A stretch of DNA of 64,000 bases, taken from Candidatus Acidulodesulfobacterium acidiphilum. GTDB taxonomy: Bacteria > SZUA-79 > Acidulodesulfobacterales > Acidulodesulfobacteraceae. Numbering within the stretch: position 1 is the first letter of the stretch; the number at the start of each line of letters is the position of its first letter. Shown here in pieces: positions 2,789 through 36,694 of this stretch. The stretch covers positions 1 through 64,000 of the forward strand of contig SHMQ01000005.1 of NCBI GenBank assembly GCA_008534395.1, read 5' to 3'. Made by a program: the position numbers and the translations under genes. A model generated the notes under the pieces. The model did no database searches. It was not told the origin of the DNA and saw nothing but the letters and a program-made list of their open reading frames with translations.

Positions 2789-3475
2789 GTTGCTCCCCAG
2801 AATAAATCTAACTAGTTATAGTTATAATAATGTATTTACAATATTTTATTATATTCCGTAAAGCTTTAATAACTTTTACACCTTACAATAGAATAAAATA
2901 AGTTAATTATATTAAAAACCGCTATATTCTTAAATATATGATTTTTTATTGCGGATGTAAAACTTAAATTTAGACTTAGTAATCAGGCATAATGTCAGTA
3001 AGCATATAGTCTTGCTGATTTTTTGTCCCGATTACGGACAATTCTGCCATTAATGCTTTATTTTGCATAGGTTTAAAAGGTATTTCTCATCTGAAATTTT
3101 TTTAGGAATTTTTAATTTTATTTTCAAAATCACGTTCTGCTTTCGCATTTTCTTTTTCGATTTTTGCATCCCTCGCTTTTCTGGCTGTAGATTCCATAAG
3201 TTATTGATACTATTTAAAATTATTTTTTTGATTTTATCATATTTTTTAAAAATATAAATTACAAAATTTAATGAAACTATACCATAATATAATAAAAATA
3301 ACTTGACAAAAAATTTTGTAAGGTTTCATTATCTTTTGTAAAGTATCAATAACTTTTGGAACTTACATTTACGCAAAGGATAAGAAAAATAAGTTAAAAA
3401 ATTATACCCTCCTTTTTTAACTTTATCATTGAGTTGAAACGATATATATTCAAATATTCCTGAACCAACCAACCC
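2789..3475. other. AT-rich intergenic region without convincing genes
   Basis: About 690 bases of very AT-rich DNA. The only distinctive feature is the palindrome at 3023-3041. An open frame on the plus strand at 3063-3257 is phenylalanine-rich, has no ribosome binding site and is probably chance. Confidence 0.5.
3023..3041. promoter_or_regulatory. Operator-like palindrome TTGTCC-N7-GGACAA, site 1
   Basis: TTGTCC, a 7-base spacer and GGACAA. The 17-base core TGTCCCGATTACGGACA is identical to the one at 22111-22127. Its position upstream of a minus-strand gene suggests an operator for a dimeric regulator. Confidence 0.45.
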
Positions 3476-3670
3476 CTATGTAATAGGTATTAATCCATTT
3501 GGATATTTTTTTATAACTTTTTCTGCCCACAATCTAAACAAATCTTCCAATGAAATATCTTCGGTCGTATAATTATCGGCTATTTCATTAAAATAGACAT
3601 CCCAATTTGCGACAAAAGAAGCTTGTCGTTCAATACCATCTTTTTGATAAAATATACAATCAATTCCTTC
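3476..3670 (-). pseudogene. Degenerate gene fragment
   Basis: An open minus frame without a start codon encodes about 63 residues including QKDGIERQASFVANWDVYF and ending LIPIT. The coding-like composition and the stop TGA just before it suggest the 3' end of a decayed gene. Another frame immediately upstream reads GYLTVSIDKFEK, consistent with a frameshift. I do not recognise the family. Confidence 0.4.
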
Positions 3671-3703
3671 TCAAATTTGTCGATAGAAACTGTTAAATAT
3701 CCA

Positions 3704-4237
3704 TCAGTTTCCTTGAACAATTTTCTTGAGCGACTTATAAAAAGAACAGTTGAATATTATATAATTTGCTATCATTGCTATCAAAAAAATCAAGAAAGAA
3801 TAAAAGGATAGTATTTTTAATATGCTATTGTCCGACAATTTTCCTACGCTTTGAATAATATTTATTAGAATTGAAAATATCAAAAAGAAACTGCTGTTCA
3901 ATATCCAAAGATTAAAATATAAAAGTTTTTGAGCCGAACCGGTCTGTATATTTTTTATATCTTCCGAATTATATGCATCATCAGCATTTGTTAAATTTTT
4001 ATTATCGCACCCGCATTTATTTACATAATAAAACTCGCTGCTGTACAAAGAGTTTGACGATGTATTGACCACAAAAAGGATCATAAATATAATCGCTTTA
4101 AGCCCTAAAAGAGCTGTATCATTTGATGCCGGAAGATTTAACAGTACACAAATAAATAAGAATCCAAATCCAAGAATAAAAATTAAAACCTGTAAAATTA
4201 AAAATCTTTTTGGTATTATTTCTGTTTTTAAATTCAT
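3704..4237 (-). CDS. Four-helix membrane protein, unknown
   Basis: The 177-residue protein has hydrophobic segments at about 11-30, 42-58, 105-128 and 140-165, with a Cys/Asn-rich hydrophilic loop (KCGCDNKNL) between the second and third. No family is recognised. It lies between the degenerate fragment and the sigma-54 regulator and appears monocistronic. Confidence 0.5.
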   Translation of the reverse strand: MNLKTEIIPKRFLILQVLIFILGFGFLFICVLLNLPASNDTALLGLKAIIFMILFVVNTSSNSLYSSEFYYVNKCGCDNKNLTNADDAYNSEDIKNIQTGSAQKLLYFNLWILNSSFFLIFSILINIIQSVGKLSDNSILKILSFYSFLIFLIAMIANYIIFNCSFYKSLKKIVQGN

Positions 4238-4358
4238 ATGTAATACATTTTAATATTCAAGAAATATTTATAAATACAGCTCTTATCTTCATTTATAAGT
4301 CTCTTAAAAAAATCATAGAAAGGCATTAATATTATTCTATATTTTTATAAAAAACTTA

Positions 4359-5924
4359 TTAAATCTTATGCCTGAAACCCTCAGGGTCGATTTTTAGCAT
4401 ATTTAATTTTTTATAAATTGCCCTTGTACTAATGCCGAGGGATTTTGCTACTTTAGAAATATTTCCATTGAACTCTGTAAGTGTTTTTTCAAGAACGGAT
4501 AACTCAGCAGCACTGGAGGCTTGCTTTTTTATCGTCCGTAATTTTAAATTCGCATAGTCGTTTATAGTTGGTTTATCTTCAGCTGTCATGGTGGATATAG
4601 ATAAGTTAGATATTTTATCATCATTAGATAAGAGTAGCGACCGTTCTAATATATTTTCCAGTTCTCTAACGTTTCCAGGCCAATTATAGGCATATAATTG
4701 ATTAATTGCTTCATGAGATAGAGCGGCTTTTACTCCATATTTTATTTCCAACTTGCCGAGAATATATTCCGATAAAGGCAAAATATCTTCTTGTCTCTGA
4801 CGCAGAGGTGGTATATGAAAACTGATTACATTAATCCTGTAATAAAAATCTCGCCTGAACTTGTCAATTAATACGAGCTTTTCCAGATTTGCATTTGTGG
4901 CCGATATAATGCGCACATCGCATGATATTGAATGTTTTCCGCCAACTCTTTCAAATTCTTTTTCCTGAAGCACTCTTAATAACTTTACTTGCGTTGATAG
5001 AGGGAGCGAATCTATTTCGTCGAGAAAAAGCGTGCCGCCTTCGGTACGTTCGAAGTATCCATGATGCACCTCATACGCGCCGGTAAAAGCACCTCTCTCG
5101 TGACCAAACAGGGTGCTTTCCACCAAATTTTCCGGTATCGCCCCGCAATTTACTCCCGTAAAAGGTTTTTTCCAGCGGGGACTGAGCGAGTGTATTACTT
5201 TTGCCACAATTTCTTTACCTACACCGGTTTCGCCAACAATTAAAACCGTGGATGAACTGCTTGCGACCTTTTTTGCCATTTTCAAAATGTCTTTCATTTG
5301 GTGTGAATTTGCGATTATATCTGGAACTATTCTCTTTTCGTCTATATCCTCCAAAACACACCAGCCGTTTTCAATTATTTTATTTTTGTTTTGAAAATCC
5401 TGATTTTTACCATTGTTGTTAATCTGCCAGTCATATTCATCACCGATATAATTTATGCCGTCCGAACGGTTCATAAATATTTGTATGTCGCAGGTTGAAT
5501 CTCCTGCCGCTATTCTTCTATTTAAGACGACTTTTGCGTAGCCAAAATTTCTTGCCACTATTCCCCCGAATACGCTTGAAGTCATTTTACATAATTCAGG
5601 GGTTTGTTTAACCGCATCACCGAAAGGGCAACGGGTATTTATAACCCTGATTGTTTCAGGCAAACTTGAAGTTCTGGAAAAATTACCGCCGATTTTATTT
5701 TTGATTTCAATTATCATTTCTGCGCATTTATCGCAATCGAGGATTCCGGTCAAATTAAACTCTTGTCTATATGCGGTTTCAAAACAACATGCTGCGTCAA
5801 GGCCTAATTGCTCTACCTTCCTGGTCGTATCAAGTTTACTATATTCCCGCGAGGATAAACCTAAGCTGATAAACGTCTGCAAAAAAGACAATGGATTTAA
5901 ATTGGTATATATTTTTTCGACCAT
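4359..5924 (-). CDS. Sigma-54-dependent transcriptional activator
   Basis: The 521-residue protein has a Cys-rich N-terminal sensor region. Residues ~90-155, with a RCPFG motif and AAGDSTCDIQIF, resemble the methanogen-output/V4R-like sensor type. The AAA+ domain has Walker A GETGVGKE at 231-238, the sigma-54 contact loop GAFTGA at 278-283 and Walker B LFLDEID at ~299-305. A Fis-type HTH occupies the last ~45 residues (SKVAKSLGISTRAIYKKL). It is encoded divergently from the carbonic anhydrase gene, whose upstream region has a strong -24/-12 element, so that operon is its likely target. The inducing signal is unknown. Confidence 0.92.
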   Translation of the reverse strand: MVEKIYTNLNPLSFLQTFISLGLSSREYSKLDTTRKVEQLGLDAACCFETAYRQEFNLTGILDCDKCAEMIIEIKNKIGGNFSRTSSLPETIRVINTRCPFGDAVKQTPELCKMTSSVFGGIVARNFGYAKVVLNRRIAAGDSTCDIQIFMNRSDGINYIGDEYDWQINNNGKNQDFQNKNKIIENGWCVLEDIDEKRIVPDIIANSHQMKDILKMAKKVASSSSTVLIVGETGVGKEIVAKVIHSLSPRWKKPFTGVNCGAIPENLVESTLFGHERGAFTGAYEVHHGYFERTEGGTLFLDEIDSLPLSTQVKLLRVLQEKEFERVGGKHSISCDVRIISATNANLEKLVLIDKFRRDFYYRINVISFHIPPLRQRQEDILPLSEYILGKLEIKYGVKAALSHEAINQLYAYNWPGNVRELENILERSLLLSNDDKISNLSISTMTAEDKPTINDYANLKLRTIKKQASSAAELSVLEKTLTEFNGNISKVAKSLGISTRAIYKKLNMLKIDPEGFRHKI

Positions 5925-10486: not shown

Positions 10487-11935
10487 TTAAATATTTTTAA
10501 GTTTTTTTAATTCTGTCAAATTATAATTTATCCACTTTTCCGCTTCTTCCTCGTTTTTTTCGATTGCAATCTCAACCCCTCGTTTAGCAATTTCAAGCAA
10601 CGATTTAGACTGTTTTCTATAAAAAAACGATTGTTCAATGAGTTCTTTAATTTCTTTTTGTTTAGCATTTTCTAATATCGGAATTATTGTTAATTTCACT
10701 TGATCAGGTCTCCAATGGTTTATAACGGAACCGCCTACATCGCGTTCAATTTGCTTCTGCACGATAACAGAATTTAAAGCAAGTGTTAAATATTCCGGTA
10801 AAATTTTTTGACTTAATATTTTTAATCTCAAAATGCCGCCGGAAACAATCATCTGCTTTGGTTCTTCGTTTAAATAATAAGCTATGCCGGGGGTCGCGTC
10901 TTTAGATAATAATATTTCGTCTTTTTTAGGTTGATAAATTTTCAATTCATCGTATAATTTTTCTGAAATAAATTGTTGATTATTATCAGAAAGTTCAAAT
11001 TTCGAAAGATTGCTCACGCGGACAAACGGAATTCCATTTTCTTGATATGCTTCGCTTCCCGGCTCTATGCTCTTTTTTATTTGCACTAAATTTCCCAACT
11101 CATCAAAACCGTCTTTATATTTCCTGACCGATTCCATAATTTCCTCATATTTTGGTTGAAAATACTCTGCATCGAACCGCTCTGCTTGTTGTGTGGCGGA
11201 AAAATTTTTTATAAAAGCAAGTTCTTGTTTTGGCTTCCAGTTTAAAAGTTCAAGTTCGGAAAGAAGAAGTTGCTCGGCTTGAGAATAAAATTCATTTGAT
11301 TCTTTTCTATTTAATTTTGTAACAACAATAATTTTTTTAACTAAATTTTGAAAATTTTCACTGAATAACGGCACTGGTATTTCTCTTATTCTTGACATGG
11401 CAACCGTAGGTTGAGCTGAAAGGGTTTTTTCACGCTCAAGTAAAAGTTGGCCAGCTTCAGAGTTTAAAAAAGTGGATAAATAAAATGGATTAATATTATT
11501 ATTTTTTGCCCGAAGAAGACAGATATTTGGACCAAGTTGCAAGTTGTCTTCTTCTAAAACTAAAGATCGTCTATATTCGCCTGTATAAGATAAGACAATA
11601 TCATTTTTTTGTAATTTTGATCTACCCAAAAATTCATCAGATATTTTTTTATCAATCTTTAAAAAATCATTTAATATTAAATCTTCATTTTGAATGTTTT
11701 TGCTTGTCAAGACTGTATAAAAACTATCTGAGTTCATATTTTGAAAGGTAAAATATTTTGTGTACTCAAAACCAGCTAATTTCGTAACTCTAAAACTATT
11801 CTTAATCCTTGTATATCTTTTGTTTTTTATGTTTTTATAAAGAGTATAAGATTTAGGACGAAAATAATCAGCATCAAATCTAAATATATCATTATCAATT
11901 AAAAGTTCTTTAAATGTAATAATTGAGCATTGCAT
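10487..11935 (-). CDS. hsdS: Type I restriction-modification specificity subunit HsdS
   Basis: The 482-residue protein has two similar halves, each beginning with a DADYF/DAEYFQPK motif (near residues 21 and 254). Each half contains a target-recognition domain ending in an SGG or SRIREIP-type segment, followed by a helical spacer. This is the two-TRD layout of HsdS, which selects the bipartite DNA target. It is separated from hsdM by one membrane-protein gene. No hsdR gene is present, but HsdM itself carries an R-like N-terminal domain. Confidence 0.85.
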   Translation of the reverse strand: MQCSIITFKELLIDNDIFRFDADYFRPKSYTLYKNIKNKRYTRIKNSFRVTKLAGFEYTKYFTFQNMNSDSFYTVLTSKNIQNEDLILNDFLKIDKKISDEFLGRSKLQKNDIVLSYTGEYRRSLVLEEDNLQLGPNICLLRAKNNNINPFYLSTFLNSEAGQLLLEREKTLSAQPTVAMSRIREIPVPLFSENFQNLVKKIIVVTKLNRKESNEFYSQAEQLLLSELELLNWKPKQELAFIKNFSATQQAERFDAEYFQPKYEEIMESVRKYKDGFDELGNLVQIKKSIEPGSEAYQENGIPFVRVSNLSKFELSDNNQQFISEKLYDELKIYQPKKDEILLSKDATPGIAYYLNEEPKQMIVSGGILRLKILSQKILPEYLTLALNSVIVQKQIERDVGGSVINHWRPDQVKLTIIPILENAKQKEIKELIEQSFFYRKQSKSLLEIAKRGVEIAIEKNEEEAEKWINYNLTELKKLKNI

Positions 11936-11938
11936 ATA

Positions 11939-12763
11939 TTAAAATGGTTTATTTAGATTATATTGTCTTTCTTTGATATATTTTATAAAGTCTTTTCCCT
12001 TTTTGGTTATTCTATAATTATTTAAATCTGCTAATTCTAATAATTGTGAACTGGTTAAAAAAGATAAATATTGTGAAATGTCAATATTATTTAAAAAAGG
12101 ATGTTGTTTGTTTTGTGTCTCTCTATAATATCTATTTATTTGATCAAAGCTAATTATAGCATTTGAAACATTTAAATAATCTAAGATGAATATTTGGCTG
12201 CCATAAATAACATTGTAAATTCGCTCAAAATCAAGCTCAATTTCCTTATTGGCTAATTGTTCTTTTAATGTATTTACATTATCGCTAAAATTCTTTATAA
12301 TATCTTCTTTGGATTGCTCATAAACTTCTTCAATTTTTTTTATATCCACTTTATTATATAATATTTCTTGGTTCGGTGGTTGTTTATCTCGTTTAGCCTT
12401 GTTTCCAAAAATATATAACTCGTTTAATTCATCTATTAGTTTACCAATGTTATCCTTAAACAATAGGATTACAAATACAGTAACTAATGGCCACCAAGAT
12501 ATTTTTAAAAAATAAATAATTTTACTTACATATTTAAAATTCCAATAATATAATAAAAAAATTGGCAGACTTATAAAAATTAAAAAATATATTAATTTAA
12601 ATACAATTTTTAATATTGGTGTAATCGAGTAAAATACATAGCTAATATTCGATAGCTTTTTTTTAATATTATTTTTTAACATTTTCAATTTATTAAAATA
12701 AAAATTTCTATTAATATTATTAACTAGTTTTCCCAAAAGGATAAATTCTCCGATATTGCCCAT
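11939..12763 (-). CDS. Membrane protein of unknown function within RM locus
   Basis: The protein (274 residues from the first possible start) has two hydrophobic segments near residues 50-78 and 84-105, then a soluble C-terminal domain of charged helices. The first ATG overlaps the read-through end of hsdM by about 40 bases. A later ATG at 12680-12682 is an alternative start. It is placed between hsdM and hsdS, where type I systems often hold accessory genes. No family recognised. Confidence 0.55.
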   Translation of the reverse strand: MGNIGEFILLGKLVNNINRNFYFNKLKMLKNNIKKKLSNISYVFYSITPILKIVFKLIYFLIFISLPIFLLYYWNFKYVSKIIYFLKISWWPLVTVFVILLFKDNIGKLIDELNELYIFGNKAKRDKQPPNQEILYNKVDIKKIEEVYEQSKEDIIKNFSDNVNTLKEQLANKEIELDFERIYNVIYGSQIFILDYLNVSNAIISFDQINRYYRETQNKQHPFLNNIDISQYLSFLTSSQLLELADLNNYRITKKGKDFIKYIKERQYNLNKPF

Positions 12764-14775
12764 TCTATAAACTTTTCTGCAACGCCGTCCGGCAATTCGC
12801 CGTTATGATTGTGTAGGTCGTGGTCTATAATAAGATGTCCGTTTTTATCTAATTTCGGCTGACCGTTGCCGTTCTTTATAAAAACATATTCCCCTGAATT
12901 GTCTTTACCAGATTTTTCCGAAACAGCAAAGAAAATCGGGTAGTCTTCTACTTTCGGGCAGAGAGGACCGGCTTTAGGGTCGTCGTTCTATTTTTGAACA
13001 AATAAAACACTTGTTTTTGTTCCCGTATGCGGTTTAAAAGTGTTTACATGCAATCCAACTACCGCCAAAATGCGGCATTTTTCGGCTATATACTCGCGAA
13101 TCTGCTTATCCGATGTATTGTTAAAACGACCCTGAGGTAAAACTACCGCCATTCTCCCGCCGGGTTTTAAGAAGTTAATGTTTCTTTCAATAAATAAGAT
13201 ATCTCTGCCGACTTTTGATTTTGGTTTATTTTTTTCGTTATATCCGAGTTCGTATTTATGAATTATTCGGGATTCTTTAATATCCCCTGCAAAAGGCGGA
13301 TTAGCCATAAGAATGTCGAAATTAAATTCTTTATATGAAGATGTATCTTTTCGCAACTTTTCAAGCCTTTTAAGCCCTGCTCCATATATATCGTACCATT
13401 CCCTAATCTTGACGGTTTCGTTCCATCGTTCATAGTCAAGGTCGTTTAAATGTAAAACGTTAGTATTTCCGTCTCCCGCTATTAGATTTAAGGTTCGGGC
13501 TACCCTAACTACCTTTTCGTCAAAGTCTATCCCAAAAATTTTCAATACATTTTCTTTCTCTTCTTCAGGAATATCGGCATTTTTAAAAAGATGACCAGTT
13601 ATGTGAAATATAGTATGCACTGGAAACCCGCAAGAACCAGCGGCGGTATCCACCATATATTCGCCAGGTTTAGGATTAAGCATTTTAACGCACATATCTA
13701 TGACATGGCGGGGCGTAAAATATTGCCCTTTTTCCCCTTTTGCCGATTTACTGACTAAATATTCAAAGGCTTCGTCAATAATCTGTAAATTAGAATTAAA
13801 AAGTTTGATGTCCTGCAAGCTGGAAATACAGATAGACAGATGAGACGGGGAAAGCTGAATTTGGCTCGTCTCGTCAAAAACACCTGGCCATTTAAGCTTA
13901 GCTTCGTCAAATAGCTTTTGAATTTTCTTTTTCAGTTCCGATTCGGATTGGCCTGTATTTCTAAATTCAAGCACTCTCGAATTAGTATCATCGTATTCTT
14001 TTAAAATTTCTTTTACTTTATTATAATCTCCGAGGTCTTCTTCGCTTAAGCGATCTTCAAGATAAAACTCAATGCGCATTTTATCTTTTTTACTTTGTAA
14101 TTCGTCATATAGTTTTGTAAAAATAAGTTTAAAGACTTCTTCAAAAACATCCACGCCGGCATTTGCCAAGACTTCGTCTTCCATTTCCTGAATAATAAAC
14201 TTAAGGGATTTTCCTTCATTGGGAATTTTGTCTTTGATAATCAAATCTTTAAGAGTGAATCTTTCTTTTAGAATATCCTCAAGCGTTTGGTCTGCTTTTG
14301 GAATATCGGTAATGTCATTAAAATAATTTGGGTCTTTACGGTTATAACGCGAAATCTCGCCACCGTTTGTCCAGACGGCAATAGGCGCTCCGGTCGCGTT
14401 GGTATATGAACGGAGCTGATTTTTTCCGTCTTGAAGTTTTGGTTTCTTTATTTCTACAATGATATATTCAACGGTCGGACGGTCTTTATCAAAAATAACA
14501 ATATCGGCTGATTTTACTTCCCTGCCAAAATGTATTGGATGTTCAAGTACTATTCTATTTTTAGGATAGCCGTATTCTCTAATAAGTTTCATTAAATAAA
14601 GTTGACGGACAACTTCTTCGGGCTTTAAAACGATTTCTTTATCGCGTATTAGGCAAGTTACATAAGGCTTACCGTCTTTTATTGTTATTTTCTTTTCAAG
14701 TTCCTCTATATAGGATTTCTCAAATAATGAGAAACTGTAATTAGAATCTTTAATGATGTTTAGAATTTTATTCAT
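12724..14775 (-). pseudogene. hsdM: HsdM-like methyltransferase with N-terminal PD-(D/E)XK domain, interrupted by in-frame TAG
   Basis: The first 595 codons (12988-14775) contain an HSDR-N-like nuclease domain (SADIVIF near 89 and EIKKPK near 108), then the N6-adenine methylase domain with DTAAGSCGF at ~376-384 and NPPF at 492-495. Translation stops at a TAG at 12988-12990 after VLFVQK. The same frame continues for about 87 codons (NDDPKAGPLCPKVEDYPIFF...) to 12724, and homologous HsdM proteins have Trp at the stop position (TGG to TAG). The protein is therefore truncated or suppressed. The fusion is typical of type I-like MTases lacking a separate HsdR. Confidence 0.75.
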
Positions 14776-29028: not shown

Positions 29029-29235
29029 TTAAAGGCGTTTAAAGTTAATTTGCTGTTTTATTAAGACGCTTAAAGTGCGTAACGGGCTCACGTCCTTGTC
29101 GGAATTGCTTATACGCCCGCCTGACCGCTTTTTCTTTAGGAATTCCGTAAAGGACGCGAGCTGTGGAGCAAACCTGAACCCGTCCTTATCCTGATTTTCC
29201 CGTCGTCCCGATTCGGAACGACCGCCGTATTCCAT
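29029..29235 (-). CDS. Small basic protein, unknown
   Basis: The 68-residue protein is very basic (MEYGGRSESGRRENQDKDGF, later FLKKKRSGGR), consistent with nucleic-acid binding. The start has no clear Shine-Dalgarno, but a CAAGTTCGCTATATAAATA element lies ~30 bases upstream. Moderate doubt remains. Confidence 0.4.
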   Translation of the reverse strand: MEYGGRSESGRRENQDKDGFRFAPQLASFTEFLKKKRSGGRISNSDKDVSPLRTLSVLIKQQINFKRL

Positions 29236-29265
29236 TATGCTTCGTTCTTCATACCGTCTTATTTA

Positions 29266-30974: not shown

Positions 30975-30986
30975 TTTAGCGAAGTT
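30975..30986 (-). promoter_or_regulatory. AACTTCGCTATATA-type element (variant)
   Basis: The minus strand reads ATAACTTCGCTAAATAAGC immediately after the reverse transcriptase stop, about 55 bases before the downstream start at 30922. Confidence 0.45.
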
Positions 30987-31695
30987 ATACTCCCGCCTGC
31001 TTTCCGACCATATTTGCGAAATTCTGCAAATAAGAGACCTCTCCCCGATGTTTTTCCGCCCGGACTTTCTTTTTCGTTTCCCTCGTCAAAGCGACTTTTT
31101 TGTTTACCGTAAGCCCGCATACATACTGCCTTTTCCAAAAAGGCATTTTCTTTACTTTTTTATAATTTATTTCAAGCCCGTATCTGTTCAGTAATTTGAT
31201 TATGAAAGACAAAGCCTTTTCCATGCCGTTATAGTCGTTTCCCGAAAAAGTTATATCGTCTGCGTATCTCGTATATGCTATATTAAACCCCGCTAATTTT
31301 TTGGCGGTTTTATAATCGAATTTTTTTAAATATAAATTTGCTATATAGGGGCTCGTCGGCGCTCCCTGAGGAAGCCTTTTGCCTTTTCCGTCTTTAAAAT
31401 CGTAAAAACAAAGACCCCATTTGAGCTTAAAGCCTAAAGCCTTGACTTTCTCAAGAGTAACCGAAGGAAAAAAGTCTTTTATATCTACGGAATAAACCCA
31501 TTTTTTATCCGTATGCGGCTTGGCGTTCGTAACTATGCTTTTGTTCGGCGTAAATCCGTGCGTATAAGGACTCGCCGGATAAGCCTTACAAAGATATTCC
31601 AGATAATCCCTCTGCCTCTTTTTAGTTATCGGGTCTGGAGCTTCGATATGCCTCGTTCCCCCGTTTTTTTTCGGAATTTCAAAAACCTTATACAT
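30985..31695 (-). CDS. Retron-type reverse transcriptase, compact
   Basis: The 236-residue protein has the RT blocks in order: IPKKNGGTRHIEAPD (7-21), VDIKDFFPS (70-78), QGAPTSP (110-116), YADD (144-147, in YTRYADDITFSG) and a CGLTVNKK segment (193-200) like the VTG-type motif of retron RTs. It lacks a long N-terminal extension, maturase or endonuclease domain, so group II intron and DGR types are less likely. AAAGGGGG precedes the ATG. A retron would be primed from an upstream ncRNA; the ~600 bases upstream are non-coding and rich in hairpins. Length is shorter than usual for retron RTs (~300). Confidence 0.85.
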   Translation of the reverse strand: MYKVFEIPKKNGGTRHIEAPDPITKKRQRDYLEYLCKAYPASPYTHGFTPNKSIVTNAKPHTDKKWVYSVDIKDFFPSVTLEKVKALGFKLKWGLCFYDFKDGKGKRLPQGAPTSPYIANLYLKKFDYKTAKKLAGFNIAYTRYADDITFSGNDYNGMEKALSFIIKLLNRYGLEINYKKVKKMPFWKRQYVCGLTVNKKVALTRETKKKVRAEKHRGEVSYLQNFANMVGKQAGV

Positions 31696-31728
31696 CTAAA
31701 ACCCCCTTTAAATGTAATTAGCTTTGAT

Positions 31729-31740
31729 ATATAGCGAAAA
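31729..31740 (-). promoter_or_regulatory. AACTTCGCTATATA-type element before reverse transcriptase
   Basis: The minus strand reads TATTTTCGCTATATATCAAAG about 35 bases upstream of the RT start. The TATATA part could serve as -10 for the RT gene itself. Confidence 0.45.
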
Positions 31741-32333
31741 TACTGCTTTTATTCCTGCGGAAATTTCGGAATTATCGAAGTTTTTAACTCGTCGGGATAC
31801 TTAAAAAAGGTATGGATGTCGGGATTAAGCGGACGAAGAGCGTTAAGCCCGCTTATACGCTAATCGGCGAGTTCGCCGCTGAATACCGCCATCTATGACC
31901 GCAATTTGAAATATATAAATCTGGTTTTCTTATTCTCCCGAAACGGAAGAACCGTTGAGCACCGTTTATGTTTCTCTTTTTACTATCCCTTATATAATAT
32001 TCTGCGTATTCGTTCAGCAGGGGCGGGATTAGCTTTTTTAAGCCTATCCCGCCCCTATAGACACTTAAGTAAGCGGGGCGGCAGAGGTGGTTCTTTAGTT
32101 CCGTAAAGCGTGAGCCCGCCTATAAAAACAAAGGCGAAAGGCTTTGTTTCTAACCTGTAGCCTTGCGGACTAAAGATAAACCGTTGCGCCGAAGCTTGTC
32201 CTGAAAAAGCCTAACCTGATTAACATGTTGCGCCGAACCAGCGCAACCGTTGCAAAAGTCAAGTTGTTTACCTTTTTACTGTCTATTTTGATATCTTAAT
32301 AATTCGTATCCTCTTTACTGTTCCTTATATATA

Positions 32334-32345
32334 AATAGCGAAGTT
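32334..32345 (-). promoter_or_regulatory. AACTTCGCTATATA-type element
   Basis: The minus strand reads GCAACTTCGCTATTTATATAT. There is no gene start nearby: the next gene downstream is the RT, 640 bases away, so a non-coding transcript over the hairpins at 31.75-32.33 kb is plausible. Confidence 0.45.
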
Positions 32346-32801
32346 GCGACTATAATTATGCTAAAATTCACCCGCCTGTAATATTTTTCCATATAGCTAA
32401 AATTTACCGATAATTCATTTCTTAATCAGGCTTTTTATAATTTTTCCACAAATGCAACTCCGCCGCTCCGAGCTTGCCCGCCTATAAACATAAAATTTAA
32501 TCTATAATGCAATCGGGCAAGCAAGGCGGTCTATGCAGTTGCAAAATTAAAACGTGCTGGGGTGCAAATCCGAGCCTTTTTCTTTCTTTGGGGGTTTGGG
32601 GGGCTTTCTTTCTTATTTCTGCGGTGAGAAAACGAAAGAAAGCCCCCCCAAAAATAAAAGTTTTTGAAAAGGGGTCAGGGGAAAAACTTTTTTCAAAAAG
32701 TTTTGCCCCTGCTCTAATAAATAATTACAACGGGGCGGGCGGCCTTTGCTTTTTGCGCCCGCCCCTGCTTCTGTCGGAGCGTAGCGGAGACTCCAATGCT
32801 T

Positions 32802-33260
32802 TTAATAAGTAGTTATTCAAAGCTTGCTGGGCTCGGGACATAAGGGAGAAAACGGGCGCAAAATCACAATTAAAAGAAGCCCCCAGAGGACAGCCCCATA
32901 CAAAAATATTTTGCGCCCGTTTTCGGAATAGGTTTGTCCCGAGCCGTCGTCGCCGTAAAAAAATTTCAAGGGGAATTCGACAGGTTGGTCACAGGACGGA
33001 CGTTATGAGATAACTATCCAAGTTAAAAAACTATTCGCCGAAGCCTGTGAGCAAACCTGTCGAATTCCCCGTCAGGCGGTTTAGGAAAATTTGATAGGCG
33101 GGGGACGACGAAATATTTATCGAAGTTAAAAACGCCGTCATCTGATATTGCGCTCCTAAAGCCTCCGCCTCCCCGCCTGTCAAATTCTCCGTTAAAAACC
33201 GCCTGTGAAATTTTTGCCTAACAGACGGGCGCAAGGAGCGTGCGACGCAGCGCCCCACTA
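32802..33260. repeat. Duplicated structured element, copy 1 (four hairpin domains)
   Basis: This 459-base copy and the one at 36304-36694 are nearly identical: about 4 substitutions in the first ~290 bases, and an identical last ~70. Four consecutive stems are visible: D1 32830-32945 (GGCTCGGGACA arms with inner GAAAACGGGCGCAAAAT), D2 32970-33070 (GGGGAATTCGACAGGTT arms), D3 33073-33205 (CAGGCGGTTT arms) and D4 33227-33256 (GGGCGC arms). The inner D3 stem differs between copies, with compensating changes. No ORF explains the conservation; a structured RNA or a DNA replication/transfer signal is likely. Confidence 0.8.
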
Positions 33261-36303: not shown

Positions 36304-36694
36304 TTAATAAGTAGTTATTCAAAGCTTGCTGGGCTCGGGACATAAGGGAGAAAACGGGCGCAAAATCACAATTAAAAGAAGCCCACAGAGGACAACCCCA
36401 TACAAAAATATTTTGCGCCCGTTTTCGGAATAGGTTTGTCCCGAGCCGTCGTCGCCGTAAAAAAATTTCAAGGGGAATTCGACAGGTTGGTCACAGGACG
36501 GACGTTATGAGATAACTATCCAAGTTAAAAAACTATCCGCCGAAGCCTGTGAGCAAACCTGTCGAATTCCCCGTCAGGCGGTTTAGGAAAATTCGATAAC
36601 AGTTTTATCGTTGTCGAATTTTCCGTTAAAAACCGCCTGTGAAATTTTTGCCTAACAGACGGGCGCAAGGAGCGTGCGACGCAGCGCCCCACTA
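36304..36694. repeat. Duplicated structured element, copy 2
   Basis: This 391-base copy matches 32802-33260 in domains D1, D2 and D4. In D3 the 115-base inner region of copy 1 is replaced by a ~45-base hairpin, with stem AATTCGA/TCGAATT where copy 1 has AATTTGA/TCAAATT. The paired change keeps the helix. The copies are direct repeats bounding the small-gene cluster, so recombination between them could delete or amplify 33.3-36.3 kb. Confidence 0.8.

Follow-up and report, generated by a model that had tools for sequence, protein, structure and literature searches.

Retrons are bacterial reverse-transcriptase systems that are often used against viruses and, to our knowledge, they have been described with one msr-msd RNA for each reverse transcriptase (RT); no retron with several ncRNAs is described in the open literature that was searched, outside which lies the main retron classification paper. 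The locus considered here lies in a window of 64,000 nucleotides (the whole stretch of DNA analysed), and raises the question of whether a very short RT beside a hairpin-rich region forms a retron, how many RNAs serve it as template and whether the two genes following it belong to the system. A preliminary description of this DNA had proposed a retron-type RT of 236 residues carrying the motifs YADD, QGAPTSP and CGLTVN, together with a single msr-msd-like RNA upstream of it.

Table 1. Features of the retron-type locus, in window coordinates.
Feature	Length	Position	Strand	Remarks
Promoter-like AACTTCGCTATTTATATATAAGGA		32322-32345	minus	Upstream of W1; common to other genes of the element
ncRNA W1	230 nt	32057-32286	minus	msr-msd-like; before RT
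W1 parts		a1 32280-32286; a2 32057-32063; candidate priming G 32279; msr-type hairpin 32227-32247	minus	
Hairpin GGGGCGGGAT...ATCCCGCCCC (GGGGCGGGATTAGC)		32019-32056	minus	Directly 3' of W1 a2, between W1 and W2
ncRNA W2	198 nt	31793-31990	minus	Before RT
W2 parts		a1 GGGATA 31984-31989; a2 TATCCC 31794-31799; candidate priming G 31983; hairpin 31932-31952	minus	
RT	236 aa	30985-31695	minus	Minimal retron-type RT; NAKPH, QGAPTSP, YADD; VCG for VTG; region Y ~45 aa
ORF2	288 aa	30056-30922	minus	C-terminal CPLCG...CCG zinc-finger-like motif; conserved cassette member
ORF3	256 aa	29286-30056	minus	M20/M28/M42-like metallopeptidase; HVD, LGADD, EE, LDRRG, EHT conserved
Promoter-like TTCGCTATATAAA		29262-29274	minus	Directly before W3
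ncRNA W3	200 nt	29062-29261	minus	Downstream of ORF3
W3 parts		a1 TAAGACG 29255-29261; a2 CGTCTTA 29062-29068; candidate priming G 29254; hairpin 29202-29222	minus	

The RT motifs QGAPTSP, YTRYADD and CGLTVN were read in the ORF, which matched Pfam RVT_1 (2.7e-24), the PADLOC models RT_III-A (1.9e-60), RT_XIII (2.5e-60) and RT_X (1.3e-57), and the NCBIfam models of the retron RTs St85 (4e-51) and Ec67 (1e-49), both under the curated cut-offs. The best PDB matches were also retron RTs, Ec86 being the first (1e-32), together with Ec67, Kva2, Ec83 and Ec78. The group II maturase model gave 1e-21 and 77.5 bits, the cut-off of 300 not being reached, while Drt2 gave 3e-14 and the DRT2-5 models at most 53 bits against cut-offs of 200-550. 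The Rfam scan yielded no intron RNA and no DGR family was present among the RT matches listed, so that the group II or DGR affinity which the preliminary description had regarded as an argument against a retron was not observed, for DGRs by the absence of a matching family only. In addition, the NAxxH motif of region X was present in all homologues (NAKPH or NAIPH), as it is in 14 of 16 validated retron RTs. The VTG triplet at the start of region Y, which 14 of 16 validated retron RTs carry and two substitute, being typical rather than universal, was replaced by VCG in all homologues. The short length is genuine, as three distinct homologues of 236-239 aa share the start MY(K/R)VFEI, which is preceded by a ribosome-binding site, and their alignment shows no internal frameshift. 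The N-terminal part that usually precedes RT motif 1 is absent, and region Y, the region directing msr recognition in Eco1 and Eco3, has half the common length, measured from VCG to the C-terminal end (the usual ~90 aa being variable). In a phylogeny with 21 other RTs, a check suggested in the preliminary description, the three homologues formed a branch of their own (94/80) placed among retron RTs, although the deep branching order was not settled and the outgroups were long-branched. Because of the family models and the NAxxH motif the RT is assigned on its sequence to the retron RT class, as had been proposed, and the whole locus is very probably a retron-type system.

The RT is followed by ORF2 and ORF3, and the three genes form a cassette present with constant order and spacing at four loci in three genomes. 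A second RT locus, at 82% identity, was found on another contig (L011) of the same genome as the window (2.09 Mb, 70 contigs), and a third form of the cassette, at 78% identity, in two other genomes of the same family (L006 and L007). The sequences of L006 and L007 are near-identical although they come from two genera, a finding that points to transfer of a plasmid or to an error in binning. Wherever dS was estimable, dN/dS was 0.08-0.17 for RT, ORF2 and ORF3, values that place the cassette under purifying selection. The distinct cassettes, known from draft genomes, are three in number. All come from a single family of plasmid-like elements, and for this reason the co-occurrence of the three genes may reflect shared ancestry. 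RecT, TraG/TraH-type transfer genes, a primase and helicases are encoded around the retron, and consequently its carrier is a conjugative, plasmid-like element with F-type transfer genes. The same element carries restriction-modification-like genes at 10487-14775 of the window, encoding an N6 methylase with HSDR_N and a TaqI_C-like specificity protein. No relative of RT or ORF2 was detected in the viral contigs searched.

ORF3 belongs to PHROG 4191, a peptidase family (3e-27), and its conserved motifs correspond to what we take to be the metal-ligand pattern of M20/M28/M42 peptidases. The PADLOC partner models gave no match for ORF3 and only E=0.06 for ORF2; judged by these models the two proteins correspond to no known retron type (I-XIII), in agreement with the earlier remark that the zinc-finger and peptidase-like neighbours are not known retron effectors. 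AlphaFold predictions from three sequences reached pLDDT values of 43 (ORF2) and 41 (ORF3). By analogy with known retrons, ORF2 and ORF3 could quite possibly be the effector of the system, an idea that has to be weighed against a second one, in which the retron is real, its effector is absent or elsewhere, and the two genes are an independent plasmid or anti-host module. ORF3-like peptidases without any RT occur on phages, plasmids and viral contigs, each after a cysteine-rich or unrelated larger protein, and the genes neighbouring Retron-Sda1 defended without its RT or ncRNA, so that retron neighbours can be an independent system (PMC12548924). However, ORF2 was found only beside an RT of this type, being confined to the four cassette loci among 193 genomes (ORF3 gave a weak match in one further genome of this set), the order and spacing did not vary at any locus and RT, ORF2 and ORF3 are jointly lost in the locus L025. 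An independent module, which would be compatible with several templates, is thus a possibility that we take seriously.

Outside these loci, a conserved pair formed by a cysteine-rich protein of ~420-450 aa and, after it, an M20/M28-like peptidase, without RT, was observed on a Vescimonas plasmid (L048:3676-5996) and on three viral contigs (L076, L077 and L078, near 3000-5300); a Parabacteroides plasmid (L050) carries a less strict form of it. It is possible that this pair constitutes an unnamed mobile-element module. ORF2 and the Vescimonas protein preceding the ORF3-like peptidases have a common P-D-x-L...SC...DGG-Y stretch (BLASTP E=0.003, single comparison); homology between them is not asserted, since the profile comparison was not significant (E=0.36).

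With respect to the RNA, a unit whose ends are complementary, ATAGACAGTAA...TTxAGTGTCTAT, was recognised as a repeat when the loci were compared; it is located before RT and after ORF3 in L006 and L011 and is present three times in the window. The genome contains five copies, three in the window and two in L011, and none of the three distinct loci lacks a copy after ORF3. The structured RNA expected beside the RT does exist, although its position and boundaries had been misplaced: instead of a single upstream RNA there are three divergent units on both sides of the cassette, W3 lying beyond the region first considered. Terminal stem and 9-bp hairpin together comprise 19 pairs, for which 98% of the cells were paired across eight full copies, against 33-41% in slid controls, and 11 of the 19 pairs showed changes on both sides, which none of 500 shuffles matched. 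The ends are closed by a terminal stem of 7 bp and by further pairs inside it, and double changes were seen at six pairs; the ends of W2 and W3 co-changed, those of W2 being compensatory relative to W1. The conserved upstream structure whose absence from homologues would have spoken against a retron was accordingly found, with strong covariation. Just inside the 5' end, at column 8, a G is invariant (8/8 copies) in the context CAGU, UAGU or CGGU (GGU in W3), not AGC; the priming G of retrons usually lies in TAGC, and also in CAGA, CAGC, GAGC or ACGC. All copies contain an msr-type hairpin of 9 bp with a 3-nt loop, mostly UUU, and W1 has a long msd-type stem in its 3' half. Folding was better than that of shuffled sequences for the three RNAs (z=-3.2, -3.1 and -4.0 for W1, W2 and W3, respectively). 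No clear common sequence links the msd parts of W1, W2 and W3, in contrast to their conserved ends and msr hairpin.

From seven copies, a covariance model was constructed for the 5' 76 nt. It detected two further copies in the genome G005 that had not been used in building it (71 and 90 bits), while the rest of the genomes searched yielded no match apart from the loci already known. When the model was rebuilt without W2 and W3, it recovered W2 with E=1e-5 and W3 with E=0.006, the next matches being at least 0.5, although E-values of small RNA models are rough. W3 is divergent, and its support comes from the model, the closed ends, the position and the folding z of -4.0 jointly. Rfam gave nothing at the gathering score, permissive matches being noise, and a DNA-pattern scan of viral contigs retrieved 14 contigs, none of them matching the RNA model.

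These RNAs show the anatomy of published retron RNAs, whose ends pair with each other, whose priming G lies on the inner side of the resulting stem and which have, in addition, a 7-10 bp msr hairpin and a long stem in the msd (PMC6868368). Here, the ends are closed, a G follows the 7-bp terminal stem, and a 9-bp/3-nt hairpin and a long stem on the 3' side are present. The stem bound by RT-Eco1 has 8 bp and a UUU loop, that bound by RT-Eco3 9 bp and a loop of 3 nt (PMC6868368), the msr hairpin loops of retrons ranging from 3 to 10 nt. In addition, the 11-mer TGTTTCGGCAT is common to the Eco1 msr and three copies of this RNA at an equal hairpin position, a coincidence reached by 5-6 of 1000 shuffles; the Eco1 ncRNA was confirmed beside its RT in E. 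coli C.

Promoter-like elements and hairpins around the RNAs were also analysed. The preliminary description had placed a promoter-like AACTTCGC element near 32334. This element is real (AACTTCGCTAT, 32335-32345), but it is a general motif of the plasmid-like element: AACTTCGCTAT occurs five times on the minus strand of the window (18963, 22213, 27927, 32335 and 34044) against 0.05 expected, often followed by a TATATA-like sequence, and is probably the element's own promoter type. The downstream ncRNA copies have directly before them a TTCGCTATA element similar to AACTTCGC, and most copies are preceded by a promoter-like element of their own. General scans were set aside, as they found 8 Sigma-70 promoters against 6.5 expected, which is chance level, and 8 terminators against 4.3, slightly over chance. 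No convincing gene was present upstream of the RT up to 32.8 kb, as had been stated. In two related loci a small zinc-ribbon ORF (CPECGAKL...CFCCGFSLC), deleted in the window, lies between promoter and ncRNA (L011:9900-10060 and L025:7600-7700, both on the minus strand). The GGGGCGGGAT hairpin (32020-32055), formerly the candidate msd stem, was rejected as such, being just 3' of W1 and outside the conserved closed RNA. Given that a GGCGGGAT/ATCCCGCC hairpin also lies between ncRNA and RT in both other loci, a function in processing or regulation is possible for it. As regards the hairpin-rich character of the region, it holds for W1 and W2, which fold above chance, but much of 32.8-33.26 kb is a repeat of the element that recurs at ~36.3-36.7 kb and in other loci, and the hairpins of this stretch were discarded as part of the retron. 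Palindrome-rich intergenic blocks, recurring inside single elements and from one element to another, were seen at 32802-33096 and ~36319-36692 of the window, 13519-13816 of L011, 7632-7891 of L006 and 7.8-8.6 kb of L025.

From the covarying copies, the RT probably uses more than one template. An ordinary single-template retron, in which the copy just upstream of the RT is used and the others are leftover duplicates of recombination, would fit the divergence of W3, the recombination between copies visible in L025 and the deletion in L024, where the 5' half of a copy is fused to the tail of the following gene. However, W2, W3 and the downstream copies keep their ends and hairpin by compensatory changes, W2 and W3 fold better than shuffles, most copies have the promoter-like element mentioned above and the copy after ORF3 is retained in every distinct locus. 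For these reasons a single template seems unlikely to us.

Recombination among the copies raises a different explanation, namely that they are mainly recombination or insertion sites by which the cassette enters and leaves, the RT serving mobility. In L006 and L011 the cassette lies between direct ncRNA repeats. L025, in G005, contains the upstream flank of the cassette and one ncRNA, with RT, ORF2 and ORF3 all absent; this ncRNA is a hybrid, its 5' part being of the upstream type and its 3' part of the downstream type, and its hairpin shows a single mismatched pair, as expected from joining two types. L025 is best read as the result of recombination between two copies with deletion of the cassette. 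Although repeats and hybrid agree with a role in mobility, the mismatched pair fits simple homologous recombination, structure-preserving changes would be unnecessary for it and no target-site or integrase feature was found, so that we consider this role very improbable. It is a speculation that the RT-less copies could act in trans with an RT elsewhere in G005. Finally, VCG instead of VTG, the short region Y and the long branch of unsettled place in the RT tree might point to an RT that is DRT-like or derived from group II, with an RNA not reverse transcribed as in retrons. This reading is scarcely credible in view of the family models, the NAxxH motif, the closed ends with a G at their inner end and the msr-type hairpin.

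The explanation that we favour overall, and hold to be fairly likely, is a retron variant with several templates for one minimal RT and with ORF2 and ORF3 as a proposed partner module. VCG, the half-length region Y and the divergence of W3, weakly found by the model that excluded it, count against this explanation. In such a system, the RT would recognise the paralogous ncRNAs through their common 9-bp/3-nt-loop msr hairpin and closed 5'/3' ends, cDNA synthesis would start at the invariant G of column 8, and the 3' stem of each RNA would be reverse transcribed, giving several different msDNAs. The RT-msDNA complexes might then control the zinc-finger protein ORF2 and the metallopeptidase ORF3, by analogy with known retrons, and the role could be defence against phages or plasmids, the differing msd parts widening what is sensed. 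The complete picture, that is a multi-template retron with exchangeable paralogous ncRNAs, a metallopeptidase partner and several sensors diversifying by recombination within one defence system, is put forward with considerable doubt. If true, this natural case of one RT with several divergent templates would reveal how msd sequences become diverse and whether different msDNAs widen the trigger range, and its very small RT (236 aa), being tolerant of different templates, would be useful for ssDNA production. As the msd diverges within one locus while the msr is conserved, what the msd senses becomes a directly testable question.

Compared with known systems, the locus resembles the Retron-Eco1 (Ec86)/St85 family in the RT catalytic motifs and NAxxH, as well as in the closed ends, inner G, UUU-loop msr hairpin and long msd stem of the RNA. 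It differs from it in the RT, ~60-80 aa shorter and with VCG for VTG, in the two or three ncRNAs per RT and in having no effector gene of that family. The Type III-A, X and XIII retrons of PADLOC provide the best-scoring RT models (E 1e-57 to 2e-60), but ORF2 and ORF3 match no PADLOC partner model and the RT stands on its own branch. The PHROG 4191 phage and plasmid M20/M28-like peptidases are of the same sequence family as ORF3 (3e-27), although in the cases viewed they have neither RT nor ncRNA alongside. In Retron-Sda1, as in this locus, the retron RT and ncRNA are accompanied by two genes other than the usual effectors of the type (PMC12548924); whereas Retron-Sda1 has one ncRNA and a HipA/DUF3037 pair, here several ncRNAs accompany a zinc-finger/metallopeptidase pair.
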